This document shows positions 30,369-46,166 of a DNA stretch of 64,000 nucleotides, in pieces. Both the position numbers and the translations under genes were made by a program. This DNA comes from an uncultured Verrucomicrobiota bacterium. Its GTDB lineage: Bacteria; Verrucomicrobiota; Verrucomicrobiia; Opitutales; Seribacteraceae. Within the stretch, counting starts at the first letter, position 1. Each line of letters begins with the position of its first letter. The notes under the pieces were generated by a model that did no database searches, was not told the origin of the DNA, and saw only the letters and a list, made by a program, of their open reading frames with translations. The stretch covers positions 1-64,000 of the forward strand of contig CACMBV010000005.1 of the NCBI GenBank assembly GCA_902612125.1, given 5' to 3'.

Positions 30369-31322
30369 ATGGCTTGTACATTCCTAAATCTTTCCTGTTT
30401 GGGCATCCTTTTCAGTAGCCTATTAACCATTCTTCATGCTTCCGAAATCAGCATTGTAAGGGAAAACGGAAAACTGATTATAAGAGCCGGTGAAGATCTT
30501 TTCACCCAGTATATTTACAAAGATGAAAAGCGAGCAAAACCAATTTTGTACCCCGTGCTTGGCCCTTTACAAAGATCAATGACCCGAAAATTTCCAATCG
30601 GAGCAAAGAGCGAAGGGGAGGAATCAGATCATCCCCACCATACTTCCTTGTGGTATACTCACGGAGATGTGAATGGCGTTGATTTCTGGGCGGTTGGTGA
30701 GCGTAAGGGGAAGATCATACACCAAGAATTTCTCAACTTGCAGGGGAACACCTTCACTTCATTGAATTTTTGGAAGGATGGACAGGGAAAAACAATATGC
30801 CAAGATGAGCGAACTCTTCACTTTTATGAATTTACAAAAAACGAACGGGCGATTGATATAAAAATTACCCTGAAGGCTACCGTAGATGACTTGGTTCTGG
30901 GAGATACCAAGGAGGGAAGCATGGGAATAAGAATGGCTCCGGAGTTCCGTCTGCGTGGAAAGGTAGCCCGTGGTTCATGCTTAAATAGTGATGGTGTAGT
31001 TGGAAAAGCAATTTGGGGGAAACGGGCTTCATGGGTTTCATATTGGGCGAAGTTTGATGATCAAGATTTGGCAATTTCGATTTTTGATCATCCTTCCAAT
31101 CCCCGGCATCCCACCTGGTGGCATGCTCGTGATTATGGTTTGGTTGCGGCCAACCCCTTTGGTCAGCATGATTTTGAATCAAAACCAGAGGGAATCGGAA
31201 AGATGGAGCTTAAGTCAGGTGAAAGTATCTCCTTTTCTTACCGGTTCCTATTCCATTTGGGAGATCCATCAAAAGCTGAGCTTCCCCAAAAATATATTGA
31301 ATGGTCGAAGGGAAAGACTTAA
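30369..31322 (+). CDS. PmoA-like family protein (DUF6807-type), secreted
   Basis: Signal peptide; RPILYPVLGP-type motif (AKPILYPVLGPLQRSMTRKFPIG...EESDHPHHTSLWYTHGDVNGVDFWAV) and CDERTLHF-like region. Confidence 0.82.
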   Translation: MACTFLNLSCLGILFSSLLTILHASEISIVRENGKLIIRAGEDLFTQYIYKDEKRAKPILYPVLGPLQRSMTRKFPIGAKSEGEESDHPHHTSLWYTHGDVNGVDFWAVGERKGKIIHQEFLNLQGNTFTSLNFWKDGQGKTICQDERTLHFYEFTKNERAIDIKITLKATVDDLVLGDTKEGSMGIRMAPEFRLRGKVARGSCLNSDGVVGKAIWGKRASWVSYWAKFDDQDLAISIFDHPSNPRHPTWWHARDYGLVAANPFGQHDFESKPEGIGKMELKSGESISFSYRFLFHLGDPSKAELPQKYIEWSKGKT

Positions 31323-31325
31323 TTC

Positions 31326-32696
31326 TTATTCCTCCCACCGCAACCCAAGTGACTTAGAAAGATCCAAAGCAAATTGAAATACTTGCAGTCTCGTTGATAG
31401 TTCATCTCTTTGGATTCTGAGAAACTGTCTTTCATCCTCCAATAACTGGAGTTGTGAAACCAGACCTGCCCGCAAGCGGTCATTGGTAAATGCATAGACC
31501 TTGGCAAAATTTTTCGATGCTTCGACTGCAATGGAATGCTCTCGTAAACTCATAACAAAAGATTTGGTAGCAAATTCAATTTCCTCGATGGCTGAATTAA
31601 TCGAGGCATTCCATTCTTCTTTGTAAAGTTCTACTTGCGATTCAGCGATTTTTAGACCGAGTTTTTTTCTGGGACTCCAAACAGGAAGATTGAAAACAGG
31701 ACCAAAGGATGCCTTCCATTGTTTAAATGGAGCAGATAAATCCGAGCCCAAGGAGATGCCTGACATGCGAAAGGTCAAGTTAGGATAAAGGTCATACTTA
31801 GAGCTTTCTTTAAGCAACAGATTTTCCTTAAGTTTGGCCTCTTTTTCCTGAAGAAAGGGTATATTCTTCATAGCTTGTGCGGGAAATACCTTTGGCAAGG
31901 AAGGCAGTTCTATTTGGGAGATTTTCTTTATTTCCGGAAGATCCGGATCAAAAGGGTTCCCAAGTAATGATCCCAGCCGAATCCTGGTGGTTTCAAATTT
32001 TCGGAGCACCTTAGCCTGCTCCAGTCTTAACTGTTCGTAAGCAATCTTTTGTCTCTCGTAAGTTATGTCACTATCTAAACCTGAATCCACCCGTTTCCTG
32101 TAATATTCCATGCTTTTTTCCTGACTTAGCGTGGCTTTTTCCAAAATCTGCATTTCAGTCTTAAGGGCACATAGTAAAAGCCAAGTGCCGGTAATCTCAT
32201 GAATAAAAGTTAATTTTGCTGCTTCCTTAATATATTCCGCTTCCTGGATGTGTATTATGGAAGATTGCTTTATAAATTTCCATTTTCCCCAAAGATCCAT
32301 TTCCCAATTAAATAAGGCACCTGTATTCCAGCTAGGGATTGATTGCTCAGTAAAGCCTGATTCCCTGGTATTTTCCTTACCCTGACTAAAGCCGATTTGA
32401 GCATTTAGCCTGGGTTCTGAATCTGTACTAAGAATTCCTGAATTGACTCGGATTAATTCGACTTTTGCGAGTTGCACTTTCCAATCAGGATTTTTCAGAA
32501 GAGCCCGGCTAATTATCGGCTTGAGCGAATCAATTTTGATTACTGATTGGAAAGATGGAATCTTGGAAACATTAAGATCGCCGGAAAGAGAGAACTGACT
32601 ATTGGATAAGGAAGTTTTTTCTATTTTGGGTTCTGGAATACCCCGGGAGTTACATCCACAAATAAAAAGTAAAAAAATTAAATAAATTGTAGGCAT
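31326..32696 (-). CDS. Outer membrane efflux lipoprotein (TolC/NodT-like)
   Basis: Lipoprotein-like start (MPTIYLIFLLFICGCNS), LKNPDWKVQLAKVELIR...SQEKSMEYYRKRVDSGLDSDITYERQKIAYEQLRLEQAKVLRKFETTRIRLGSLLG. Confidence 0.92.
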   Translation of the reverse strand: MPTIYLIFLLFICGCNSRGIPEPKIEKTSLSNSQFSLSGDLNVSKIPSFQSVIKIDSLKPIISRALLKNPDWKVQLAKVELIRVNSGILSTDSEPRLNAQIGFSQGKENTRESGFTEQSIPSWNTGALFNWEMDLWGKWKFIKQSSIIHIQEAEYIKEAAKLTFIHEITGTWLLLCALKTEMQILEKATLSQEKSMEYYRKRVDSGLDSDITYERQKIAYEQLRLEQAKVLRKFETTRIRLGSLLGNPFDPDLPEIKKISQIELPSLPKVFPAQAMKNIPFLQEKEAKLKENLLLKESSKYDLYPNLTFRMSGISLGSDLSAPFKQWKASFGPVFNLPVWSPRKKLGLKIAESQVELYKEEWNASINSAIEEIEFATKSFVMSLREHSIAVEASKNFAKVYAFTNDRLRAGLVSQLQLLEDERQFLRIQRDELSTRLQVFQFALDLSKSLGLRWEE

Positions 32697-32717
32697 ACTT
32701 CCCTCAAAATAAATTAA

Positions 32718-33240
32718 TTAAGAACCTGAATTTTCTGGTTGCTTAGGCTGACTGATTGTGAAGTTGAATCGTTGCTCGGAACTCCTTGAGCCTTTAGCCT
32801 TTTCCCAGCCTCTATTTCCCCCCACACCTTCCCGTCTACCAGTCAACAAAGCTCCGTAACGATCGATTATTGAAATCATAGTTCTTGCAATTCGTTTGCG
32901 ATCTATGCAGCAAGAATGCCAAGGGCTCGGACACTTAACTCCGGAAATTTCTTCATAAGTCTCCCAAGAATCATCCCCAATAACTGTTATTTCCCGATGA
33001 GCCAGGAATGGTTTTTTCACTCCACTAATGAAACTCTCGACCACGATCGCTTCCTTAGGCCGATTCATTATTTGCATCCGTGACTCCGAGGGGAGGGCCC
33101 ATATCTTGCGTAGTAATGAAATCGTTGGGTAATTGTCGTCCATTTCGTTTTGGAATCATTTTTTCTATTGGAATAGCTTGTAAAGGATAGTTGGGTTAGT
33201 GCGGTTAAAAGTCGGATACAAATGGGGAAAATTTTCATTG
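32718..33240 (-). pseudogene. Frameshifted gene for a small PWxxCC-motif protein (Planctomycetes/Verrucomicrobia-type hypothetical)
   Basis: Main ORF 32718-33143 encodes AIVVESFISGVKKPFLAHREITVIGDDSWETYEEISGVKCPSPWHSCCIDRKRI but lacks a signal peptide. A signal-peptide-like start (MKIFPICIRLLTALTQL) lies upstream at 33238 in another frame, and a third frame reads LPNDFITTQDMGPPLGVTDANNESA. Confidence 0.6.
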
Positions 33241-33257
33241 GTTCTATGTGATTAGAT

Positions 33258-34409
33258 TCAATAGGAACGAAGAGTTTCCGGTAAATCGGGTCGCAAGCAT
33301 TTCCAGGAAGGCGGAAAGACGCCGACGATTCCAAGAATGACGCCAGAGATAATTCCCGTAAAAATTATGCTTTGATCGAAATGGAGAGTAAAAACACCGA
33401 TAGCAAAAGGAAATGAAAGACCCTCCATAAATAATATTCCGATAAGAATGGAGGAGGTGGCGGAAATGAATCCAGTAAATGCCGCCTCTTGGGATAAACT
33501 ACAAAATATAGCAAGCCTTGAGAAACCAATTGCCTGCAAGGCTCCGAATTCTTTAATCCTTGCCGTAAATGTTGCAAATAGGGTATTTAAGCCGCCCATA
33601 AATGCACCGATCGAAATGAGAATGGCTGAAATCCAGGCCATCCATCGTATCGGGGAATAAAAATTTGAAACTTCCGCATAATAGATTGATTCCCTAATGG
33701 CAACGAGTTCCAAATCCAGTCGTGATCTGGTAAAGATTTCAGCGTTTGAAAAAGTATTTTTATCTTCTACCGAAAGTACCACGCAAGAGAGATTATCCCG
33801 TTGAGTGTAGGTCATAAGGTCTAAAAGGGGAATCCATATTTCAGCTTCCATTACTGTACCCCGAGCATCAAAAATTCCCACGATCTTAAGTTTTTCACTG
33901 TTGAAGTTAAGAAATTCACCAACTTCTAAATCAATGGGCTTTAATCCGAGTTTGTGATGTGCAAGTCTCCCGATCATAATTTCCCCGGACTGAGGAAATC
34001 TACCTTCAATGATACGTACTTTCGGGTGCACCCATAACGCTTGGTGCTGAACACCCCTCAAAAGTGCCTGAGCACCTTGACCTTGCAGGGTATGAACCAT
34101 GCCATTGTAATGAACTTCCGGTGATATGGCAGACTGGTTCATGATCTGTGCAATTCCTTGCAGGTTTGCATTGACAATTTCATCGGTGCCAAGAGCAATT
34201 TCACTGCGCTCAATACTTTCTTCACTGCCTGCACTCAAGAGAATAATATTTTGCTCGCTACCTGAATTGGTGAGAGTTTCCTGCATCGCCTGATTGATTG
34301 CAAAAGCAACCATAATTAAAAGAACAACCATTCCACTACCTCCAACTAATTGAAGAGTCTGAATAGGTCTTCTAAAGATATTTCGGATTGTATAGGCAAT
34401 GGGAAGCAT
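33258..34409 (-). CDS. ABC transporter permease (FtsX/MacB-like) 2
   Basis: FtsX topology: N-terminal TM, periplasmic domain, three C-terminal TMs; FGALQAIGFSRLAIF motif. Confidence 0.92.
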   Translation of the reverse strand: MLPIAYTIRNIFRRPIQTLQLVGGSGMVVLLIMVAFAINQAMQETLTNSGSEQNIILLSAGSEESIERSEIALGTDEIVNANLQGIAQIMNQSAISPEVHYNGMVHTLQGQGAQALLRGVQHQALWVHPKVRIIEGRFPQSGEIMIGRLAHHKLGLKPIDLEVGEFLNFNSEKLKIVGIFDARGTVMEAEIWIPLLDLMTYTQRDNLSCVVLSVEDKNTFSNAEIFTRSRLDLELVAIRESIYYAEVSNFYSPIRWMAWISAILISIGAFMGGLNTLFATFTARIKEFGALQAIGFSRLAIFCSLSQEAAFTGFISATSSILIGILFMEGLSFPFAIGVFTLHFDQSIIFTGIISGVILGIVGVFPPSWKCLRPDLPETLRSY

Positions 34410-34411
34410 AA

Positions 34412-35563
34412 TTAAGAAGCCCTCAAATTTTCAACTATGGAATGACTGCTTGCTTGCCAGGCAGGATAGGCACCTGCAACCACACCCAAAGCCCAGGAAA
34501 GAAAGAAGCCAGCCAGCCAGACTGAATGGCTTGGAATAAAAGCTATGGCCAAGCCCTCATTTCCTATGGTTATACTTTGCATATGTAGAAAAACCGTAGC
34601 AGAGGAAACGCCGACAACACCTCCTACGGTTGAAAGAATGACGGCTTCAGCGATGACTAACCAGGCAATGGCTCCGCGTGAGTAACCGAGGGTTTGTAAA
34701 ACCGCATTTTCCGAAATTTTGCCCCTAACAGCTATCAGGATAGTATTTGCGATTAATCCGATAACCGCAAAGACTGACGCAACACCAACCCATCTGGAAA
34801 AAGAAATTAGTTCGATCAGTTCCTTGGCAGTGCTTGCAAAAAAAGCTTTTTCTGGGCTTGTAGTGGTTGGTTCCGGTTCTGTTTTGAACCTCAGGTCGAT
34901 CTGCCTGGCTACCGAGTCCAAGATAGAGGAATCTTCAACCTTGACCATAAACTGAGTGACTGCTCCGAGCCCAGCTCTAGAGCTTTGCTGAAGAAAAGGC
35001 AGATGCACATAAGCAATATTTTCATCTTGAGAAGATTCAGAGGAACGAATTATTCCTGCGACGGTCACTGTAACACCCGCAGCATCGAAACTATCTCCCA
35101 CATGCAGCCTTCGCCTTTGAGCTAAATTAACCCCGACGAGAGCCCCGTCTTCCCGTTCCAGCCATTTGACAAGTGAACCATGTAAGAATTCCATCTTTTT
35201 TGAAAGGGCACCAACTTTGGAAGAGGGGATTCCCCGAAAAACAACCACATCCAAACTTGTTCCGCAATTATTGACAAGAATCTTGACAGGAATTACATCC
35301 GTAACTCCGTCAATTTTCTTAATTTCATTTTCATAGTATTCAGGAAGTTCGCTTGTGGATGGACAAAAACGGTTTTCACGAAAAACAATCAGGGTGGTGT
35401 CATTGGCAGTGATGGAAGTGGCACTCTTGAGAGAGTCTTGCATCGTTTCGATGGTTGTGAATAGAAACATGCCGGTAGCCACACCGACTATTGTCAGGAT
35501 TGAGCGGGTGCGGTTTCGTAAGGCATATTTTGCCGCCACCACAATCAGTTTTAAGGATTTCAT
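34412..35563 (-). CDS. ABC transporter permease (FtsX/MacB-like) 1
   Basis: NRTRSILTIVGVATGMFLFTTIETMQ...ISENAVLQTLGYSRGAIAWLVIAEAVILSTVGG. Confidence 0.93.
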   Translation of the reverse strand: MKSLKLIVVAAKYALRNRTRSILTIVGVATGMFLFTTIETMQDSLKSATSITANDTTLIVFRENRFCPSTSELPEYYENEIKKIDGVTDVIPVKILVNNCGTSLDVVVFRGIPSSKVGALSKKMEFLHGSLVKWLEREDGALVGVNLAQRRRLHVGDSFDAAGVTVTVAGIIRSSESSQDENIAYVHLPFLQQSSRAGLGAVTQFMVKVEDSSILDSVARQIDLRFKTEPEPTTTSPEKAFFASTAKELIELISFSRWVGVASVFAVIGLIANTILIAVRGKISENAVLQTLGYSRGAIAWLVIAEAVILSTVGGVVGVSSATVFLHMQSITIGNEGLAIAFIPSHSVWLAGFFLSWALGVVAGAYPAWQASSHSIVENLRAS

Positions 35564-36255
35564 GCTAAGATTTCTGAACGGGTGATTAGCTTACCTTTCT
35601 CAAGTTCAAGACAACGCGTAGCTCGAAGGGCAGCTTTGGGGTCATGAGTTACCATAACTACAGTTTTCTTTTCATAGGCAGAAAGCCCTTCAAGGAGATC
35701 AAGAATCTCATCTGCGGATTCCCTGTCAAGGTCCCCGGTGGGTTCATCCGCGACAATCATGGAGGGTTCAGTAACCAATGCCCGAGCAATGGCAACTCTC
35801 TGCTCCTGACCTCCGGAAAGTTCATTAGGGAAATGATCCAGTCTATCAGAAAGGCCAACATGCTCTAAGACGGCTTCCACTTTTTCTCTTCTTTCCTTTT
35901 TGTTGATATTATGAAGTAACAAAGGTAACTCAACATTTTCAAAGGCAGTTAGAACGGGCATCAAGTGGTAAAGCTGAAAAATATAACCAACATGTTTGCT
36001 TCTCCATTTGGTTAACTGCTCACGATTCATTTCGTGGAGGGAGTGTGAACCTACATCTAAGGTGCCTTCGCTTGGTGAATCAATGCCAGCGATTAAATTA
36101 AGAAGGGTGGTTTTACCGCTGCCTGAAGGTCCCATAAGGGAGATAAACTCAGCGGATGCCACCTCGAAGCTGAGTTGACGGACGGGAATGATTTCCCGCT
36201 TACCTTTATGAAATTTCTTGGAAAGTTGTACTGCTTTGATAAATGGTTTATTCAT
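35560..36255 (-). CDS. ABC transporter ATP-binding protein (LolD/MacB class)
   Basis: Walker A GPSGSGKTTLLN, signature LSGGQEQRVAIARAL, Walker B MIVADEPTGDLD. Confidence 0.97.
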   Translation of the reverse strand: MNKPFIKAVQLSKKFHKGKREIIPVRQLSFEVASAEFISLMGPSGSGKTTLLNLIAGIDSPSEGTLDVGSHSLHEMNREQLTKWRSKHVGYIFQLYHLMPVLTAFENVELPLLLHNINKKERREKVEAVLEHVGLSDRLDHFPNELSGGQEQRVAIARALVTEPSMIVADEPTGDLDRESADEILDLLEGLSAYEKKTVVMVTHDPKAALRATRCLELEKGKLITRSEILA

Positions 36256-37682
36256 AAAATTTGAGTTATTTTAACAGCATCCCCGATGGTTAAATTATGA
36301 GGCGGATTAAGAATAACTTGGTCTCCTGCTAGAAGGCCTGTTCTAACTTCGATGAATTTCTCTTTAAAAGTTATTCCAAAAGTTACCCTCCTTTTTTCAC
36401 AGTGTTTACCATCTTTGGAAATCACCCACAAAAACCCTTCAGAATTTGAAGAATTTGGAAAAGTATCGTAAGCTTCCTTTTTTACAAAAATTCCAAGCTT
36501 CGAACGGTCTTCTATTTTGATGGTTTTTGATTCAAAAAACTTGGCTCTGCAAAGCATTTCGGGACGAAGTCGTGGATGAGGATTTTCGATGCGGACTTTT
36601 ACCTGAAGCGTATTTCTTTGCAGATCAGCTTCTCCGAGAATTCGGGTTATTTTTCCTCGAAATGTTTGCTCTGGAAGAATGCTGGAGGAAATTTCTACGA
36701 TTTGCCCAAGATTCACCTTAGCAGCTTCGCTTAATGGAACATCAATCCTAGCCTGCAATTTGCCTTTTTCGAATAGGATTGCGGCCACCGCAGCCTCCCT
36801 GTTGTCCATATCCAGCATCATTCGAGATCCTGGTTTCGCAAGTAACCGAAGAATAATTCCGTTCATTGGCGATGTAATTCTTGTCCTTGTTAAATCCAAT
36901 TGCGCTTTTTCTTTTTGTACTGAAAAAATTTCAGTCTTTTTCTTTTGTGCGAGAAGAGTTTCTTCCAGTTTCCTGATGAGTGCCTTTTGCTGAAGAACCC
37001 CAGAATTAGAAGTGGCTAGTTCTGCAATTTGTCTTTGTAAAGCGAGTTTTGCCTGATAAAAGGACTGATCCGAAACCGCACCTTTGGGAAGAGAAGACAT
37101 TCGATTGACGGTATCATTATTTTCCTGCAACAAAGCCCCGTCTTTACTTACCTTGGATAGGGCAGCACCGAGTCCTGCCCGGGCCAGCTCTACATCCGCT
37201 TCGATGATAGCTTCTTCAGCTATTGATTGTGAATGCTTTGCGTTAATTTCAGAAAGCACCAAACGGGCATCTTCATCAATAAGGGTAGCGATGACCTGAT
37301 CCTTTTGGATTTGTTGGCCTTCGAGAACATGAACTTCCTTAACTACTCCACTGTAGAGGGATGTAACCCTGATGGGAAAAGGGTCAGGTTCAATCCATCC
37401 ACTTGCTTGGAATAAAAGTGAACCCTGTCCATGTGTTGAAAGATTATTATCTAGAACTTGTTTCTTTTCGTTCGGGTATAAGATGGCCGTGGTTACTTTG
37501 ACCTCGTATGCAGATAAAAAGTTTTCTCTGAAGGCAACGGCAAGAAAGATGGCAAAAAAACAAACTGAAAAAATCGTTAGTAATTTTTTATTGATGTAGC
37601 CTTTCGGCTTTTTAGGCTCTTCGATGCCAGTGAATGGGTTTCGATTTCGTAATATTATCATAGTTGTCTGTCTACAGTTCAA
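36252..37682 (-). CDS. HlyD/MacA-like membrane fusion protein
   Basis: N-terminal TM, biotinyl-lipoyl-like halves (VTSLYSGVVKEVHVLEGQQIQKDQVIATLIDEDARL / ITSPMNGIILRLLAKPGSRM), coiled-coil hairpin. Confidence 0.94.
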   Translation of the reverse strand: MNCRQTTMIILRNRNPFTGIEEPKKPKGYINKKLLTIFSVCFFAIFLAVAFRENFLSAYEVKVTTAILYPNEKKQVLDNNLSTHGQGSLLFQASGWIEPDPFPIRVTSLYSGVVKEVHVLEGQQIQKDQVIATLIDEDARLVLSEINAKHSQSIAEEAIIEADVELARAGLGAALSKVSKDGALLQENNDTVNRMSSLPKGAVSDQSFYQAKLALQRQIAELATSNSGVLQQKALIRKLEETLLAQKKKTEIFSVQKEKAQLDLTRTRITSPMNGIILRLLAKPGSRMMLDMDNREAAVAAILFEKGKLQARIDVPLSEAAKVNLGQIVEISSSILPEQTFRGKITRILGEADLQRNTLQVKVRIENPHPRLRPEMLCRAKFFESKTIKIEDRSKLGIFVKKEAYDTFPNSSNSEGFLWVISKDGKHCEKRRVTFGITFKEKFIEVRTGLLAGDQVILNPPHNLTIGDAVKITQIL

Positions 37683-37721
37683 TTTATCTCTTCAGGGAGA
37701 GAAGAAAGAATGAACTTTCGA

Positions 37722-38060
37722 TCAGACAATAATTACGCCCATCAAGAGATGCCGTCTGGCTTTAGATAAATAAGTATGAGGAGAAAAATTTTCTTGAGTG
37801 CGAAGGGAATGCGGTTTTATAGCTACTTCGATTGGTTTTCCTGCAGCAGAAAGAAGAAAATTTGAGGATTCCAGAATTTCAACAAGCCCAAGTTCGTCAA
37901 TTGCATCAAGACAGGGATGATTTTCGCATGGCTGGTTTGCGGTTGATTGATGGGCACAGCATGTCGATGAAATGGCATCATCTTCGCAACACAAACATTC
38001 AAACAAAGGAATGAAGAAGATGCTTGCAGCACAGATAATTGATTTAAAAATATTCAACAT
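37722..38060 (-). CDS. Small secreted Cys-rich protein, first gene of the efflux operon
   Basis: Signal peptide followed by ECLCCEDDAISSTCCAHQSTANQPCENHPC; same strand and 39 bp upstream of the HlyD gene. Confidence 0.65.
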   Translation of the reverse strand: MLNIFKSIICAASIFFIPLFECLCCEDDAISSTCCAHQSTANQPCENHPCLDAIDELGLVEILESSNFLLSAAGKPIEVAIKPHSLRTQENFSPHTYLSKARRHLLMGVIIV

Positions 38061-38360: not shown

Positions 38361-39950
38361 CTAATCAACTATCTGATTAGATGTGTCTTTTCTGAAAGAT
38401 AATAATTTTACTTCAGGTTTAACAGGTTTGAGGGCTTTCTCTTTTAATCTATCTTTGTTTTTGGCAATATTAAACCATTCCTTCGACATTTGGCTTACTT
38501 TTTGAGGATACTTTGCGGATAAATCTTTAAGTTCAGTTCGATCATTATCAAGATTGTACAGCTCCCACTTTCCGCCTTTCGCCGATACAAGTTTCCATTT
38601 CCCTTGTCTGAGTGCTCTGTCAGTGCCGAAATGGAAGTACATGGAGTCATGTCCATCTCTTTTTTCATTATTAAAGATTGGAGTAAGTGACTTTCCTTCT
38701 AGAGGATCAATTTGTCGGTTTCCTATTTTTCTTGGGTAAGTAGCTTTACCTAATTCAATGAAGGTTGCCATAAAATCAATGAGATGAGCAGGTTGGCGGG
38801 TTATACTTCCTGCCTTTACTTTTAAGCCGTTCGGCCAATGAGCAATTAGAGGAGATGAGATGCCTCCTTCATGTTGGTTTTGCTTATAAAGCCGAAAGGG
38901 AGTGTTACTTACCTGTGCCCAAGAGGCATCATAAGTCCAATATGAGTCCGGGTCCCAGGGAGCGATGTTTCTGCCGCGAGTTCTTTCGAAAGGACAACCG
39001 CCATTATCTGCACAGAAAAGAAAGAGTGTATTATCCAGAACGCCACGAGATTTTAAATCAGTAAGAAGTCTCCCAATATTTTGGTCCATAATATCAATCA
39101 TAGCCGCAAAAACTTCCATACGTTTTGCTTCCCAATGCCTCTCGGTTTCTTTGATGTCAGACCAAGCGGGAATATGAGGTGCACGAGGAGAGAGTTTAAA
39201 TTTCTCAGGAATCAGGCCGGATTTAACTTGGTTTTGATAGCGTAATTTACGAATCACATCCCAACCGACATCATATGCACCATTGTATTTTTCCACATCC
39301 TTCCTTGGTGCGTGGAGAGGATAATGGGGCGCATTGTAAGCGATATACAGAAAGAAGGGGTTGGAATGACTATCTATGTCTTCTTCTGACAAAAATTGCA
39401 GAGCATAATCAGTGATTGCATGGGTCGTGTAGAAAGGTTTTCCATTAAGCATTCTTGGAACATGCCATTCTTTTCCATTGAGCCTAAAAGATTTGTCTCC
39501 ACTAAAGAAATTAGTGGCGCCGGATAGATGACCCCAATATTTTTGAAAACCGAAATCAGTCGGCTGTTCGCTAAGGTGCCATTTACCAGTCATCCATGTC
39601 GAATACCCCGCAGGCTTAAGAACTTCAGCAATGGTTGCTCCTCTAGAAAGTGATTTACCACCTGCCTGATCACAATAGAGACCAGTTAGCAGTGAAACAC
39701 GAGAAGAATGACATTTAGCCGTATTATAAAATTGGGAAAATTTAAGCCCATTCTTCGCAAGCCGATCAAGATTGGGGGTCTGAATTTCTGAACCATAGCA
39801 TCCAAGGTCTGCGAAACCGAGATCATCTGCCATAATCAATACAATGTTTGGCCGGACTGCAAAAACACTTGTTAAGGATAAGAGGGAACCAAAAGAAAAA
39901 TAAGCCTTTAGCCAATATTTAAATAAATTTGTAAGTAGATTGCTTTTCAT
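38361..39950 (-). CDS. Secreted sulfatase with variant active-site motif CHSSR
   Basis: PNIVLIMADDLGFADLGCYGSEIQTPNLDRLAKNGLKFSQFYNTAKCHSSRVSLLTGLY...TGKWHL...DNGGC. Likely start ATG at 39950 (ATGA overlap with upstream sulfatase). Confidence 0.95.
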   Translation of the reverse strand: MKSNLLTNLFKYWLKAYFSFGSLLSLTSVFAVRPNIVLIMADDLGFADLGCYGSEIQTPNLDRLAKNGLKFSQFYNTAKCHSSRVSLLTGLYCDQAGGKSLSRGATIAEVLKPAGYSTWMTGKWHLSEQPTDFGFQKYWGHLSGATNFFSGDKSFRLNGKEWHVPRMLNGKPFYTTHAITDYALQFLSEEDIDSHSNPFFLYIAYNAPHYPLHAPRKDVEKYNGAYDVGWDVIRKLRYQNQVKSGLIPEKFKLSPRAPHIPAWSDIKETERHWEAKRMEVFAAMIDIMDQNIGRLLTDLKSRGVLDNTLFLFCADNGGCPFERTRGRNIAPWDPDSYWTYDASWAQVSNTPFRLYKQNQHEGGISSPLIAHWPNGLKVKAGSITRQPAHLIDFMATFIELGKATYPRKIGNRQIDPLEGKSLTPIFNNEKRDGHDSMYFHFGTDRALRQGKWKLVSAKGGKWELYNLDNDRTELKDLSAKYPQKVSQMSKEWFNIAKNKDRLKEKALKPVKPEVKLLSFRKDTSNQIVD

Positions 39951-41350
39951 AAGTTTTTTAATCTCTTGTATTCGGGCCGATTTTTCCATTCATTGAAATA
40001 TTTTTCATAGCTCTCTACTTCTGTCCAAAATATTCTTGGTGGCTGTGTCCGGACTTTGCCTTCAATGTAGTCTTTCCCGATAACACTGTTCCTTATCGAG
40101 ATCATACCAGCGTTCAAAAATTTATTTAAATTATTTAAAGTCTTACCTTCTTTATCTTTCAAATTGGTGGTTTCTGCCATATCTTTAGACAAGTCATAGA
40201 GTTCAAGTTTTGGACCATTTTTGCCCGGTAAGCTTAGTAGCTTCCAATTATTATCAATCACAGCCATCCTAGCATTGCTGCTAAAAATTAGCGGTTTTTT
40301 TCGCAAGGTAATTTCCCTTTTAAATAGTTTTGCTAGGCTTTCTCCATCTTGGGGATATAAGCATGATTCCTTGGGTAGACTAACGATCTCAGAAATAGTT
40401 GGAAAAATATCGACCGCCCCAGCTGGGTAACTGGTCTTTCTTGGCTTACTAATTCCTTGTGGCCACTCAATCACGCAAGGTACACGGATACCGCCCTCAT
40501 AAAGACTGCCCTTAAAATCCCTTAGACCTCCTGTCGTAGAAGGTTTTATCTTTGGTAAACCCCCGTTATCACTCATAAACCATAAAAGGGTGTTTTTTTC
40601 GATCGACAAATTACGAAGTCCTTTTCTTAGGTTTCCGATACTTCTATCCATTGCTTTGAGCTCTGCGTAGTGGTCCCTTGAAGACACATCAAGATCTGCA
40701 AAACAAGAGCGGTCTTTCTCCAGGGACATGAATGGAACATGAGGAGTACCGTACCAAACGACGCAAAAGAATGGAGTGCCTTTTTTCTTTTGCTCAGCTA
40801 TAAAGGATAAAGCTTCATCAATGATAATTTCAGAAGAATCACCCGTAAATTCTTCAAAGTTTCCATTCCGGCTCATGATCGGGTTAAGGTCAAAGAAATT
40901 GGTAACGGATACCCATTTTTGAAAACCAAAATCCTTTGGTCCATTTGGGTAAGACTTAAGAATGGGAACTCCTGGTCCTCTTAAACCGTTTAAATGCCAT
41001 TTACCGAAGTGGCCGGTAGCATAGCCCGCCTTTGATAAGGCCTCTGAGATAGTTTTTTCCTGCAAGCGGAGAGCATATCCGTGATTAAAAACCCCTGTCC
41101 GATCATGAGTGCGTCCCGTCAGCACAGTTGCCCTGGTTGGGGAACAGACGGGTCCACCAGCATAAAATCTTTTAAAACAAATCCCATTTTCTGCCATTTT
41201 ATCCAGGTTTGGTGTTTTTAGAACAGGGTGTTTCATGTAACCTGTCTGTCCCCAACCCTGGTCATCAGTCATAACCAGAATAATATTTGGTTTTGAATCC
41301 AAGCTTAAATTGACCAGTAAGAGCAAAGATAGAATTCTTAGTAAGCTCAT
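39947..41350 (-). CDS. Secreted sulfatase (CSPTR type)
   Basis: PNIILVMTDDQGWGQTGYMKHPVLKTPNLDKMAENGICFKRFYAGGPVCSPTRATVLTGR...FGKWHLNG...MSDNGG. Confidence 0.96.
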   Translation of the reverse strand: MSLLRILSLLLLVNLSLDSKPNIILVMTDDQGWGQTGYMKHPVLKTPNLDKMAENGICFKRFYAGGPVCSPTRATVLTGRTHDRTGVFNHGYALRLQEKTISEALSKAGYATGHFGKWHLNGLRGPGVPILKSYPNGPKDFGFQKWVSVTNFFDLNPIMSRNGNFEEFTGDSSEIIIDEALSFIAEQKKKGTPFFCVVWYGTPHVPFMSLEKDRSCFADLDVSSRDHYAELKAMDRSIGNLRKGLRNLSIEKNTLLWFMSDNGGLPKIKPSTTGGLRDFKGSLYEGGIRVPCVIEWPQGISKPRKTSYPAGAVDIFPTISEIVSLPKESCLYPQDGESLAKLFKREITLRKKPLIFSSNARMAVIDNNWKLLSLPGKNGPKLELYDLSKDMAETTNLKDKEGKTLNNLNKFLNAGMISIRNSVIGKDYIEGKVRTQPPRIFWTEVESYEKYFNEWKNRPEYKRLKNL

Positions 41351-41354
41351 ATAT

Positions 41355-44300
41355 TTATTTAACGGTTAAAATACCCTTCATGATTGTCCAGTGACCAGGG
41401 AAGGTGCACATGTATGGATATTCTCCAGGTTTCTTGGGTGCATTGAATCGAAGAATTTCTTTCTCTTCCTGCTTAAGCATTTTAGTATGTACAATTATTT
41501 TCTTTGAATCAGGTATAAATTGTCCTGTTTTTGCAGCATCAGGATCACTGGCCATCAAGTTTGCAGCCTGACCAATGTCTTCGAGAGAACCCGGTTCCAC
41601 GATTACAAAATTATGTGGTGTAGCATCGGGGTTGTAAAATTCCAGTCTAATGGGTTGGCCCTTTTTGGCTGAAATAGTTTCAAGATCAAAAAGCATTCTT
41701 TCTTTTAGGCATTTAATTTTTACTTTTAGTAAATTACGTTGGCGATCAAATTTAGAGTTCTTTTTAGATATCTCTATCTCTCTTTCTGTTCGCTTACTTT
41801 TACTTAAAATAGTGGCTATTTCTGGATGATCTATCCCAACTGTTTTTGGATCCCAAAAATTTCTCATTTTATGAGAACCAAGCGCTGTGATGATTGCATA
41901 ATTTAAGTGCTTTTCATTAGGTAATTCATTCATCTGCTTGAGAATATTAAATGCTTGCTTGGTTCCTACATAGCTACAAGCAATGGCAGCTTCCATTCTT
42001 ACTAATCCATTAGGGTCCTGGGCAGCCTGTTCCAGCAGTTTGTTTCCATCTTTAGTTTTTCCATGCCAGTATCTCAGTTGTTTTGCTGCGGCTGCTCTTG
42101 CATAATGATTATCTGAGTTGAGCAATTCCTTCAAAAGAGGAATATTTGACAGATCAAGATTTCTGTAAGCCCAAATAGCTTCAAGTTGATGATTTCTGTA
42201 TCTTAGATCCTGAGGATTCAGCTTTTCAACCCATTTATCAATTTCTCTTTTTACAATCTTAGGGTTTTTCTCCCTTAGCTCGCGTTTTGCCCAATAACGA
42301 TAACGGTATTCCTTCCTTTTTAATATATCCAATAGTGCTCCAATTGACACATTGTGAATCTTCGGAGGTGAAACAGGTTTCGCCCGCTTTGGCATAATTC
42401 TCCAGATTCTACCAGATAGTCGGTCCCGCCTTTCATCCCTAAGAGAATATTGGGCATGTCCCTTGACCGGGTTATACCAGTCACAAACATACATGGCCCC
42501 CATTGGACCGTACCGCAGATCAACCGGAATAAAACTTAGGTTTTTTGAAAAGATGATGTCCGACACATATTTTTCTTCATAACCAAACTCATATTCATTC
42601 CACTCCAAAAGCTCCACGCGGTTTGTGGGTTTATAACGAACTTTTACCATCATACCCTGTAGATCATCCGGCCAGTTGGGAAAATCTATAAACTCTTGTC
42701 CGCAAACTCCTGAGTAAGCCTGCATTCCATTAGGGCGTGGATGTTGTTCGGGGTATGGAGGGTCAAGAGCGTGATGAGCTGAAGCAAAAATAGGATAACT
42801 AGCGACATGGTTTCCCCACTCATCGAAGGTTATTCCCCATGGATTGGTACTTGGGTGACTGCCAAAAGATGTTAAACGATGTTTTTTTGGCTCCCATGTA
42901 AACCAACCACTATTTTTTTGCCTGACTGGTCCGTAGGGAGTTTCAACCTGAGAATGATGAAAAATTGACTCGCGGAAAATTAGATCACCATCAGGAGTCC
43001 ATGCGAAATCATGAAGGGCGTGATGTGAATCCTCGCATCCAAACCCGGTCAATGGAATCTCCCTTAGATCTGCTTTACCGTCGCCATCCGTATCCTTGAG
43101 AAAAGTCATGTGCGGTTCTTCCGAAACATAAACGCCTCCATTTCCAAATTCAAAAGATAAGGGAACATTGAGTCCCTCGGCCCAAACCGAGCATTTGTCC
43201 GCCTTTCCATCCTTATCTAAATCCTCAAGGATTACGATTTTATCATTGGGTGACTGGCCTGGGTATACATGGGGATAAGTCGTGGAACAACTGACCCACA
43301 TTCTGCCTTGTGAATCCCATCGCATTTGTATGGGGCAAGCAATGTCCGGAAACTCTTCTTCACTGGCAAAAAGAGATACTTCAAAACGGGGGTCTATTTC
43401 AAAGGCATCCAATTCCTGCTGAGGATTCATCCATTGGTTCGCACCTCGACTCTGTTGGGTTTTAGGAAGAGGAGGAACATTGGAATCATCAATAATTGGG
43501 CTGGGGTTCTCTCCTTTTACGAGTCGATGAATTCTTTGATCTCTATTCGATGTCATAAGATCAAAATTCTTCATCGCTGGTAAAAAATCGAGGTATCCGT
43601 ATTTCCCTTTTCTTCCTCCGGTGTAATAGAAAGTGTTGAGAGGTCGATACCGGTAGAAATGCTGGGTATTTTTTTCTAATACAGCTGCACGGACATCCTG
43701 GTTTAATTGAGGAGGAGAATTTCCAGTGAGGCTCTCATACAGAATTTTGGCAAGTTGCTGGTACCCGAATTCATTCAAGTGACATCCATTTATGGTTAAG
43801 TTCCTCGTGGTGTCTTTCATCGATTTAGAAATAGGAGAGTAGCAGTCAATGAAACCCACTTCTTCCATTGCACATATCTCTTGCATAGCCTTGGTGTAGG
43901 CAAGGATTCTGCGGTTATTCATATTACCAGCGTCGACTCCCTCGACATTTTCATTGGCAATTGGAGAAACCAATACCACTTCCGGAGCTGAAACTCCATT
44001 GTAACTGGCTGCTTTAAGATTAGCTAAATAAGACTGAAGGCGGATTTTGAAGTTGGATATTTTTTCAATTCCTGCGAATGATTCATTATACCCGAAGGCT
44101 GCGATGATAATGTCAGCATTCATTGCAGTAAGATGTTGATTAGTATCGGCGAAATTATCGGGTCTGGGTTGCAGGTCAATTTCATCGGCTGACCATGCAA
44201 GATTACGAACAATTAACTCATGGGTTGGGTGACCCTGTTGAAGAAGGGCTTCAAAATGACCAAAATCTCTCATTCGGTCAAAGAGGGTATTACCAATCAG

Positions 44301-44474
44301 GGCGATGCGCTCTTTTTTTCCTAATTTTAGGGGTAGTGCCGTTTTAACCGGCTGGGCAGGGGTTGCTCTTTCAGCACTTTGAGCGAACAGAGCGTACTTT
44401 TGATAATCTTCTTCTCCACCTCTGGCTATGAGGCTGGTAAGAAAATACAGGTAAGTGACTGTGCAGAATTTCAT
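41355..44474 (-). CDS. Multidomain protein: SGNH-like + PVC-type membrane-bound dehydrogenase (beta-propeller) + HEAT repeats + C-terminal cupredoxin
   Basis: ERIALIGNTLFDRMRDFGHFEALL...AAFGYNESFAG (SGNH-like); FEIDPRFEVSLFASEEEFPDIACPIQMRWDSQGRMWVSCSTTYPHVYPGQSPNDKIVILEDLDKDGKAD (PVC dehydrogenase); C-term ATPHNFVIVEPG...YPYMCTFPGHWTIMKGILTVK (type-1 copper). Likely start at 44474. Confidence 0.9.
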   Translation of the reverse strand: MKFCTVTYLYFLTSLIARGGEEDYQKYALFAQSAERATPAQPVKTALPLKLGKKERIALIGNTLFDRMRDFGHFEALLQQGHPTHELIVRNLAWSADEIDLQPRPDNFADTNQHLTAMNADIIIAAFGYNESFAGIEKISNFKIRLQSYLANLKAASYNGVSAPEVVLVSPIANENVEGVDAGNMNNRRILAYTKAMQEICAMEEVGFIDCYSPISKSMKDTTRNLTINGCHLNEFGYQQLAKILYESLTGNSPPQLNQDVRAAVLEKNTQHFYRYRPLNTFYYTGGRKGKYGYLDFLPAMKNFDLMTSNRDQRIHRLVKGENPSPIIDDSNVPPLPKTQQSRGANQWMNPQQELDAFEIDPRFEVSLFASEEEFPDIACPIQMRWDSQGRMWVSCSTTYPHVYPGQSPNDKIVILEDLDKDGKADKCSVWAEGLNVPLSFEFGNGGVYVSEEPHMTFLKDTDGDGKADLREIPLTGFGCEDSHHALHDFAWTPDGDLIFRESIFHHSQVETPYGPVRQKNSGWFTWEPKKHRLTSFGSHPSTNPWGITFDEWGNHVASYPIFASAHHALDPPYPEQHPRPNGMQAYSGVCGQEFIDFPNWPDDLQGMMVKVRYKPTNRVELLEWNEYEFGYEEKYVSDIIFSKNLSFIPVDLRYGPMGAMYVCDWYNPVKGHAQYSLRDERRDRLSGRIWRIMPKRAKPVSPPKIHNVSIGALLDILKRKEYRYRYWAKRELREKNPKIVKREIDKWVEKLNPQDLRYRNHQLEAIWAYRNLDLSNIPLLKELLNSDNHYARAAAAKQLRYWHGKTKDGNKLLEQAAQDPNGLVRMEAAIACSYVGTKQAFNILKQMNELPNEKHLNYAIITALGSHKMRNFWDPKTVGIDHPEIATILSKSKRTEREIEISKKNSKFDRQRNLLKVKIKCLKERMLFDLETISAKKGQPIRLEFYNPDATPHNFVIVEPGSLEDIGQAANLMASDPDAAKTGQFIPDSKKIIVHTKMLKQEEKEILRFNAPKKPGEYPYMCTFPGHWTIMKGILTVK

Positions 44475-44681
44475 CTTCAATTCGGTTTGGGCTAAGCAGA
44501 AAATTAGAGTACAGATTTCATTTTTGAGAATAACATGCCAAATTTGGCGAGGTAAAAATTTGCCAAACATCGAGATTTTATTGTTACCCATGCATCAATT
44601 TGTAGGGTGTTTGTAAGAAAAAGTTTTAGATATTACCACTTTCGAGTTCTAATTTTTCAAAAGATTATATCAACTACTGAA

Positions 44682-46166
44682 ATGAACCAATTGAAGTTAG
44701 TACTTTTAATTGCACCGTTTCTGATTGCCCATCTCATTCATGCCCTTCCCTTTGGAGTAAAACCCAATGTCATTCTTGTAATTACTGATGATCAGGGTTA
44801 CGGCCCGATCGGTAAACATGGAAACCCATGGATTAAAACTCCCAATCTGGATAAGCTTTATGGCCAGAGCACACGCTTCGAGAGATTTTTGGTCAGTCCA
44901 ACTTGCTCTCCTACGCGTGCAGCACTGATGTCAGGTAGACATCCCATGAAGAATGGTATTACCCACACTATTCTTGAACGTGAAAGAATGGCATTAAGTA
45001 CGGTCACCCTGCCCCAGGTTTTAAAAAATGCCGGATATACCTCGGGGATTTTTGGAAAATGGCACTTGGGCGACGAGGAACCTTATCAACCCAATAATAG
45101 AGGTTTTGATGAGGCCTTTATCCATGGTGCTGGAGGCATCGGTCAAAAGTTTAACTGTTCCTGTGCTGATGTTCCGGGAAATAAATATTTTGATCCGGTT
45201 ATCAGGCACAATGGTTCATTTGTTAAAACCATAGGGTATTGCACCGATATTTTTTTTACCGCAGGTCTAGGCTGGATGAAACAAGTGAGCGAAAAGAAAA
45301 AGCCATTTTTTGCCTATATTTCAACAAATGCACCACATGGACCATTTATTGCTCCCCCTCAAAATGCGAAACGATTCACAGACCTCGGCTTCTCCGAAAG
45401 AGATGCCGGCTTTTATGGAATGATCGAGAATATAGATGAGAACATGGGTCGTCTTTTGGAAAAACTTGATCAATGGGATCTAAGCAAAAACACTATTCTT
45501 ATATTTATGTCTGACAATGGTTCAGTAGGAGGAATGGTTCGAGAAGGCTCGAAACTAGGAACTAGTAAAGACGGAAAGCCCATGGAAGGTTTTAACGCAG
45601 GGATGAAAGGTGCAAAGGGCTCTGCAGACGAAGGTGGTGTCCGAGTCCCCTTTTTCATCCGCTGGCCGGGTAAATTCTCGCCGGGAAAAGTGGTAGAAAG
45701 AATTACTGCTCACATTGACCTTTTGCCAACACTCGCGGATATTGCGGGAATTAGCAAATTGCCGAAAGGCCAAATCGATGGACGAAGCCTCGTTCCTCTA
45801 CTTAAGAACCCCAAGGCAGAGTGGAGGGATCGCTATCTATTTACCCATAAAGGACGCTGGAAAACAGGTACTGAACCAACAGAGCGAAAGTGGAAAGGTT
45901 TTGCTGTCAGGAATGAGCGTTTTCGCCTGGTAGAGAATAACCTATACGATCTAGAAGCAGATCCCGGTCAAACTATAAATATAGCGGATAAACATCCGAA
46001 AGTGGTTAAGTCAATGAGAGAAGCATATGAAAGCTTTTGGAAAGAAACAAGGCCCTTGATGGTCAACGAGGAAGTGAACATGTCCGCGACCCGACCCTAC
46101 CATGTGCTCTATGAAAAACAGTTGAAGAATGAAGGTATAACCATCTGGCGTAAGCCTCACCTCTGA
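44682..46166 (+). CDS. Secreted sulfatase (CSPTR type)
   Basis: PNVILVITDDQGYGPIGKHGNPWIKTPNLDKLYGQSTRFERFLVSPTCSPTRAALMSGR...FGKWHLGDEEPYQPNNRGFDE. Likely start ATG at 44682. Confidence 0.96.
   Translation: MNQLKLVLLIAPFLIAHLIHALPFGVKPNVILVITDDQGYGPIGKHGNPWIKTPNLDKLYGQSTRFERFLVSPTCSPTRAALMSGRHPMKNGITHTILERERMALSTVTLPQVLKNAGYTSGIFGKWHLGDEEPYQPNNRGFDEAFIHGAGGIGQKFNCSCADVPGNKYFDPVIRHNGSFVKTIGYCTDIFFTAGLGWMKQVSEKKKPFFAYISTNAPHGPFIAPPQNAKRFTDLGFSERDAGFYGMIENIDENMGRLLEKLDQWDLSKNTILIFMSDNGSVGGMVREGSKLGTSKDGKPMEGFNAGMKGAKGSADEGGVRVPFFIRWPGKFSPGKVVERITAHIDLLPTLADIAGISKLPKGQIDGRSLVPLLKNPKAEWRDRYLFTHKGRWKTGTEPTERKWKGFAVRNERFRLVENNLYDLEADPGQTINIADKHPKVVKSMREAYESFWKETRPLMVNEEVNMSATRPYHVLYEKQLKNEGITIWRKPHL

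Follow-up and report, generated by a model that had tools for sequence, protein, structure and literature searches.

A split MacB-type ABC exporter with an invariant cysteine pair, probable selenocysteine counterparts and a likely leader attenuator: a candidate soft-metal efflux system in Verrucomicrobiota and Planctomycetota

The MacB family of ATP-binding cassette (ABC) transporters is credited, in the parts of two reviews available to us, with exporting drugs, toxins, siderophores, heme, glycolipids and lipoproteins (PMC5985334, PMC8277102), and those parts name no metal substrate for MacAB-TolC. The functional core of MacAB-TolC consists of a permease with MacB_PCD and FtsX domains, a MacA/HlyD-type adaptor, a TolC-type channel, and a LolD/MacB-type ATPase that in MacB is fused to the permease. 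LolCDE combines a single ATPase with two different MacB-type permeases, and the MacB-like heme exporter HrtBA has a single MacB-type permease, no adaptor, and a metal-containing substrate taken from the membrane or the outer side (PMC8277102). In the copper/silver efflux system CusCFBA, an HlyD_D23 adaptor, an OEP channel and a periplasmic chaperone serve a resistance-nodulation-division (RND) pump. Here we describe a gene cassette in a 64,000-nucleotide stretch of DNA, referred to as the window (positions 1 to 64,000 of contig CACMBV010000005.1, assembly GCA_902612125.1), from an uncultured Verrucomicrobiota bacterium of the family Seribacteraceae. The cassette encodes an HlyD-type adaptor, an ATPase, two different permeases (P1 and P2) and a TolC-type channel, together with a cysteine (Cys)-rich open reading frame and a lipoprotein gene of a type named here for its PWxxCC motif. 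It works much as a hybrid of MacAB-TolC and Cus would; the lack of a fused MacB sets it apart from MacAB proper, and scores far under the cut-offs, together with the adaptor, set it apart from LolCDE.

The reading that we favor, as modestly probable, is a MacB-type (type VII) ABC exporter, split and heterodimeric, that clears a soft metal from the periplasm, with Cu(I) the likeliest and Hg, Ag or another thiophilic metal possible. The evidence computed for it comprises a recurring gene set, invariant Cys in P1, UGA codons at those positions in Planctomycetota, selenocysteine (Sec) machinery in the genomes concerned, and an RNA hairpin. The most telling feature, absent from an earlier sequence-only reading of the window, is the P1 Cys residues and their probable Sec counterparts. 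We regard as evenly balanced the fuller claim that a pump of the MacB family, instead of an RND pump or P-type ATPase, expels periplasmic soft metals through a Cys/Sec site, that its type VII permease (carrying up to two Sec) and the PWxxCC lipoprotein each represent a new selenoprotein family, and that a metal-sensing nascent-chain leader controls the system in two phyla. The features of the locus are as follows.

37722-38060, minus strand: Cys-rich open reading frame (CysR), a likely leader; 112 amino acids, 8 Cys including CC; CutF/HYC_CC_PP-like
37664-37729, minus strand: RNA hairpin, with the leader stop codon (37722-37724) in its 5' arm and the end of its 3' arm just upstream of the HlyD ATG (37661)
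36252-37661, minus strand (open reading frame 36252-37682): HlyD/CusB-type membrane-fusion adaptor; HlyD_D23 E 1.9e-19, RND_mfp above cut-off
35560-36255, minus strand: LolD/MacB-type ABC ATPase, its own polypeptide; ABC_tran E 5.9e-36, LolD 231 of 307.75 bits
34412-35563, minus strand: permease P1 (MacB_PCD and FtsX) with two invariant periplasmic Cys, from Pfam and the ortholog alignment
35363-35365, minus strand: P1 Cys67 codon; UGA in 14 of 16 Planctomycetota loci with UGA-containing P1
35264-35266, minus strand: P1 Cys100 codon; in Planctomycetota UGA here (2 loci) or in the next codon after Cys (9 loci)
33258-34409, minus strand: permease P2 (MacB_PCD and FtsX), partner of P1, from Pfam and the ortholog search
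32718-33238, minus strand: PWxxCC lipoprotein pseudogene; relatives intact, with invariant C96, C104, PWD and CC
31326-32696, minus strand: TolC/OEP-type outer-membrane channel lipoprotein; OEP E 9.5e-26; adjacency limited to the window's genus and a small number of others

When P2 was searched against 388 Verrucomicrobiota genomes, strong orthologs (E of 1e-87 or better) turned up in 39, and the next matches, beyond a gap, were at about 1e-55 and weaker. Among about 40 loci read, the same order of leader, HlyD, ATPase, P1, P2 and PWxxCC is found in several classes; the gene set recurs across the phylum at about 30-90% protein identity, far above chance, and is also present in Planctomycetota, at times reordered (P2-PW-HlyD-ATPase-P1). 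These six genes almost certainly constitute a conserved unit. The sequence-only reading had proposed a MacAB-like exporter with two separate permeases and had called for a neighborhood check: the exporter is supported, and the Cys-rich and PWxxCC genes do stay beside the transporter in distant genera. Its TolC gene, by contrast, is not supported as a fixed part of the system, as the OEP gene adjoins the cassette in the window's genus and a small number of others but not in most relatives; we infer from this confined adjacency that the pump must usually work with a channel encoded elsewhere. Within the window's genus the cassette is patchy, with P2 and HlyD orthologs in the same 4 of 25 genomes. 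A single scan of genome contigs returned 3 loci, and a plasmid search with P1 found nothing beyond permeases of 26% identity. Two side observations concern the surroundings of the pump genes: a second ATPase and permease pair directly follows the OEP gene in one genus relative (L038:6348-7013 and neighbors), and a beta-barrel-like protein of 286 amino acids, which could be a dedicated outer-membrane partner, is encoded just downstream of P2 in two Sec-type operons (L141:10267-11124 and L142:5543-6400).

Residues C67 and C100 of P1, both in the periplasmic domain, are invariant in 43 of 43 orthologs. Sixteen Planctomycetota loci carry in-frame TGA in P1. The codon occupies C67 in 14 loci and C100 in 2, or follows C100 immediately, as Cys-TGA, in 9; the gene has no other such codon. 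When every frame with a UGA was scanned, these positions came up again as Cys/UGA exchanges. The PWxxCC gene has such codons at locus L155 (TGA at the first invariant Cys, and "UC" for CC) and at locus L156 ("CU" for CC), whereas the best-scoring stretches of HlyD, ATPase and P2 in the same operons contain no in-frame TGA; no in-frame UGA was found in the leader copies of Sec loci. SelB is encoded in all 16 UGA genomes (15 above cut-off, the other truncated where its contig ends) against 11 of the 24 used for comparison, and 13 of the 16, all draft genomes, have a strong tRNA-Sec; counting either marker, the figures are 16/16 versus 13/24 (Fisher p 0.0012). The tree requires at least two changes of Cys/Sec state in P1. 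As for a SECIS-like element, hairpins 3' of the UGA have a mean z of -1.23 and are more stable than those where the codon is Cys (mean z 0.01), although several UGA sites are weak and the sequences compared are related and hence not independent. Because UGA falls at invariant Cys, the Sec machinery is present and the adjacent genes lack UGA, Sec is strongly indicated, and the UGA-type Planctomycetota forms very probably contain it. That the codons are artefacts or pseudogene stops, which would leave no selenoprotein and a weaker argument from Cys, is very improbable: all UGA forms do come from draft genomes and are known from sequence alone, and some are followed by weak hairpins, but in P1 they are confined to the two invariant Cys or the position next to them, across 16 genomes and at least two lineages and always with SelB, and they recur on the PWxxCC Cys while sparing HlyD, the ATPase and P2 of the same operons.

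Metal-linked selenoproteins already described, namely MerT/MerP-like and CopZ-like proteins, the UxxU heavy-metal-associated (HMA) family (NF041115) and the SO_0444 Cu/Zn transporter, are alike in that Sec replaces a metal-binding Cys. None of them is a MacB/FtsX permease or a PWxxCC lipoprotein, and neither type of protein is listed in Table 1 of a 2026 review, which covers 119 prokaryotic selenoprotein families (PMC13188914); NCBIfam of June 2026 has no model that scores above cut-off for either. On the sequences at hand, the P1 permease and the PWxxCC lipoprotein are probably two new selenoprotein families. The window's own P1 has Cys codons at 67 and 100 and no UGA, and its genome (64% complete) has no SelB above cut-off and no strong tRNA-Sec. 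As a separate observation, P2 contains one in-frame TGA in a Verrucomicrobiota genome (G121:C137:5852-6991, within locus L102), a candidate for Sec, a frameshift or decay. A sequence search of the PDB with P1 gave distant matches only (5xu1, 5gko), and an AlphaFold model of P1 from 4 sequences (predicted local distance difference test, pLDDT, 48.4) was too weak to use; in it C67 and C100 closely follow strands one and two of a strand-helix-strand unit, an arrangement that would place both at the same edge.

The gene calls of the sequence-only reading hold: seven same-strand units are present on the minus strand at the coordinates it gave, its ATGA overlaps (HlyD/ATPase and ATPase/P1) and its 2-bp gap between P1 and P2 are correct, and Pfam and NCBIfam agree with it on the HlyD protein, the ABC ATPase, the two FtsX permeases and the TolC-like protein. 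In both permeases the MacB_PCD and FtsX domains score above the Pfam cut-off, and neither the Cys-rich nor the PWxxCC open reading frame matches any Pfam or NCBIfam family above cut-off. The HlyD start is probably the ATG at 37661 rather than the TTG at 37682, which falls within the hairpin. The MacA model reaches 27.7 of 342 bits on the adaptor, while HlyD_D23 and RND_mfp are above cut-off. Among NCBIfam models P1 best matches LolC/E and the ATPase best matches LolD, as expected of a pump for lipoprotein trafficking or for drugs in general (LolCDE- or MacAB-like) whose Cys form structural disulfides only, and structural disulfides may also be invariant. Those matches are far under the cut-offs, however (55 of 362 bits for LolC/E on P1, 231 of 308 for LolD on the ATPase), LolCDE lacks an adaptor, and Sec would hardly be expected to take the place of structural Cys in two or more lineages; such a pump is accordingly quite improbable here. 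The soft-metal exporter that we favor differs from MacAB-TolC in its separate ATPase and two different permeases, and in the invariant Cys/Sec of P1, the leader and the PWxxCC lipoprotein; from LolCDE, with which it shares one ATPase and two different permeases, in its adaptor, channel and Cys/Sec site; and from HrtBA, whose substrate is heme, in its adaptor, second permease and Cys/Sec site. It shares with CusCFBA the HlyD_D23 adaptor, the OEP channel, a putative periplasmic chaperone and a metal logic, but has an ABC engine instead of an RND pump, and profile searches show no relation between PWxxCC and CusF.

Rhodobacter CutF and Bordetella CruR are short exported proteins during whose synthesis copper is sensed and whose C-terminal stalling motif controls the next gene (PMC9973294, PMC9426467); the start following CutF is hidden by a stem-loop, and most Cys-type CutF-like leaders precede copper genes (PMC9973294). 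The two papers name no MacB-type ABC target for such leaders. In the cassette described here, a Cys-rich open reading frame comes first in both phyla, whatever gene follows. The collected copies have 108-171 amino acids, 6-14 Cys and an N-terminal export signal (by eye); the last residue is hydrophobic or Cys in 37 of 39, and 24 of 39 have a Pro-Pro (PP) motif among their final 20 residues. The window's copy is short (<150 amino acids) and lies first, upstream of HlyD and on the same strand, starts with a hydrophobic signal (by eye), has the conserved hydrophobic C-terminus, and ends 60 nucleotides before the HlyD ATG. Gaps between leader and HlyD have a median of 80 nucleotides (those between P1 and P2 are about 0), and the gap RNA folds strongly, with a mean z of -2.9 versus -0.14 inside HlyD (p 1e-7). 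The leader stop region pairs with the HlyD start region over a mean of 11.2 bases versus 1.5 in shuffles; at least 6 bases are paired in 19 of 25 loci, and stop/start pairing is found in 9 of 15 Planctomycetota loci, including two with P2 as the first gene. In the window's hairpin, 7 of 22 pairs show compensatory changes among 3 genus sequences, versus 0-2 in slid controls.

This arrangement resembles the CutF, CruR and HYC_CC_PP leaders in its short exported Cys protein at the head of a putative metal operon and its stem-loop over the next start; a PP motif is present in most copies but not in the window's. Unlike those leaders, it does not match DUF2946, and it matches HYC_CC_PP, a Bacteroidota family, only weakly. 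The Cys-rich open reading frame is likely a leader attenuator, and by the CutF/CruR precedent it would act through ribosome stalling and respond to metal. The sequence-only reading had cast the Cys-rich protein as a periplasmic partner, a role for which we find no support; a cis-acting metal-sensing leader fits the hairpin and the stop/start pairing better. A further alternative makes the protein the cargo, a secreted bacteriocin- or toxin-like peptide that is exported or warded off, with PWxxCC as a folding or immunity lipoprotein: a Cys-rich exported peptide does head a MacB-type exporter operon, and the MacB-like YknWXYZ protects against a disulfide-linked peptide (PMC8277102). Yet the protein is highly variable (mean column identity 15%), whereas its end, its position and the hairpin that covers the following start are conserved, it has an export signal of its own, and cargo would leave the Cys/Sec of P1 and the HMA neighbors described below unexplained, which makes this alternative distinctly unlikely.

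Lipoproteins with an HMA domain, several of UxxU or UxxxU type, adjoin the Sec-type cassette at five loci (L141, L142, L143, L147 and L149), and a Cys-type HMA protein does so at L172. Elsewhere, genes near the cassette include RND pumps (L073 and L074), a P-type ATPase (L077) and a nickel-type NicO transporter (L079); these metal neighbors are examples, not an enrichment. Among transporters known to contain Sec, most have a link to heavy metals or metalloids (PMC13188914). On the strength of the HMA lipoproteins, the metal-gene neighbors, the CutF-like leader and the Cys/Sec sites, a soft-metal substrate appears fairly probable; copper in particular is a tentative best guess, made because most Cys-type CutF-like leaders precede copper genes. 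The metal or thiol-reactive cargo suggested by the sequence-only reading has thus gained support from the P1 residues, the HMA neighbors and the leader. Cys/Sec exchange at a two-residue site is also typical of redox-active thiols, and a redox role is presumed for the majority of known selenoproteins (PMC13188914), so that the P1 pair and PWxxCC might instead swap disulfides, either to export a small glutathione- or cystine-like thiol or to reduce some periplasmic substrate in the course of transport. We consider such a thiol-redox system unlikely: a metal is suggested both by the metal-binding HMA lipoproteins that adjoin the Sec form and by the CutF-like leader, and neither a thioredoxin-like nor a DsbD-like gene is part of the cassette. 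Both metal-binding Cys are UGA in five HMA proteins (L141:11304-11555, L142:6593-6844, L143:9979-10221, L147:588-821 and L149:10194-10427); these UxxU/UxxxU proteins have lipoprotein-like N-termini where read, and are distant from the NF041115 family, scoring below its cut-off.

Compared with two genus relatives, the window's PWxxCC gene has indels and frameshifts, and Tyr codons replace the lipobox Cys and the first invariant Cys. It is a decayed pseudogene, and a sequencing error is rejected as the cause, there being several independent lesions. The sequence-only reading was right to call the gene apparently broken, and this is decay rather than one sequencing slip; two working thiol-bearing partners are therefore not supported in this genome. 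The window's species keeps the pump without the lipoprotein, which may be dispensable at times, or the system may be decaying here. A PWxxCC profile search of the same 388 genomes matched the same 39 (including the window's degenerate copy) and 11 genomes of genus g47 that have no strong P2 match. The g47 homologs read (2 of the 11 genomes) have lost all Cys and the PW motif and have no pump gene nearby, which ties the PWxxCC Cys to the pump. The Cys-free lipoproteins are at L181:8873-9238 and L182:8046-8408 (g47, possibly Akkermansia), and a second, solitary PWxxCC copy (L183:6250-6615) occurs in G121, the genome of locus L102. A PDB sequence search with the PWxxCC profile gave no match, and an AlphaFold model of the domain (2-sequence alignment, pLDDT 49.5) was too weak and was not used.

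In the mechanism that we propose, P1 and P2 would form the membrane and periplasmic pump, driven by the separate LolD-like ATPase, and the HlyD/CusB-type adaptor would join it to a TolC-type channel. The PWxxCC lipoprotein would serve as a periplasmic metallochaperone that takes up metal and hands it to the two-residue Cys (or Sec) site in the P1 periplasmic domain; in selenium-using Planctomycetota, HMA lipoproteins may replace or join it. ATP-driven movement of the P1/P2 periplasmic domains, modeled on MacB mechanotransmission (PMC5985334), would then push the metal into the adaptor and out through the channel. Metal bound to the nascent exported leader would hold the ribosome at the leader C-terminus, and the held ribosome would open the hairpin over the adaptor start, allowing the operon to be translated. 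Several points weigh against this reading. Sec is normally a redox residue; metal genes lie near a minority of cassettes, and a motif scan around all cassettes found few; the AlphaFold models are too weak to show contact between C67 and C100; the window's PWxxCC gene is dead; its leader has no PP motif; and the leaders have no DUF2946 match and stay below the HYC_CC_PP cut-off (best 17.4 of 28 bits, 2 of 39 members).

If true, the proposal would give the MacB family a branch that handles metals, and the selenoproteins two further families, one of them an ABC permease with up to two periplasmic Sec and with Cys twins in many relatives; automatic annotation is expected to truncate the UGA-type genes. 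Leader peptides that sense copper would likewise gain a new target, and their known range would come to include the Planctomycetota-Verrucomicrobiota-Chlamydiota (PVC) group. The substrate site of MacB-type pumps is called open by a 2021 review (PMC8277102), and the natural Cys/Sec exchange marks residues to mutate, which makes that question testable.

In the window, as read by eye, the cassette forms an island. On one side lies a PmoA-like gene of DUF6807 type (30369-31322), on the other a series of sulfatase-like genes (38361-46166), among which a large protein with a cupredoxin-like end is encoded at 41355-44591.

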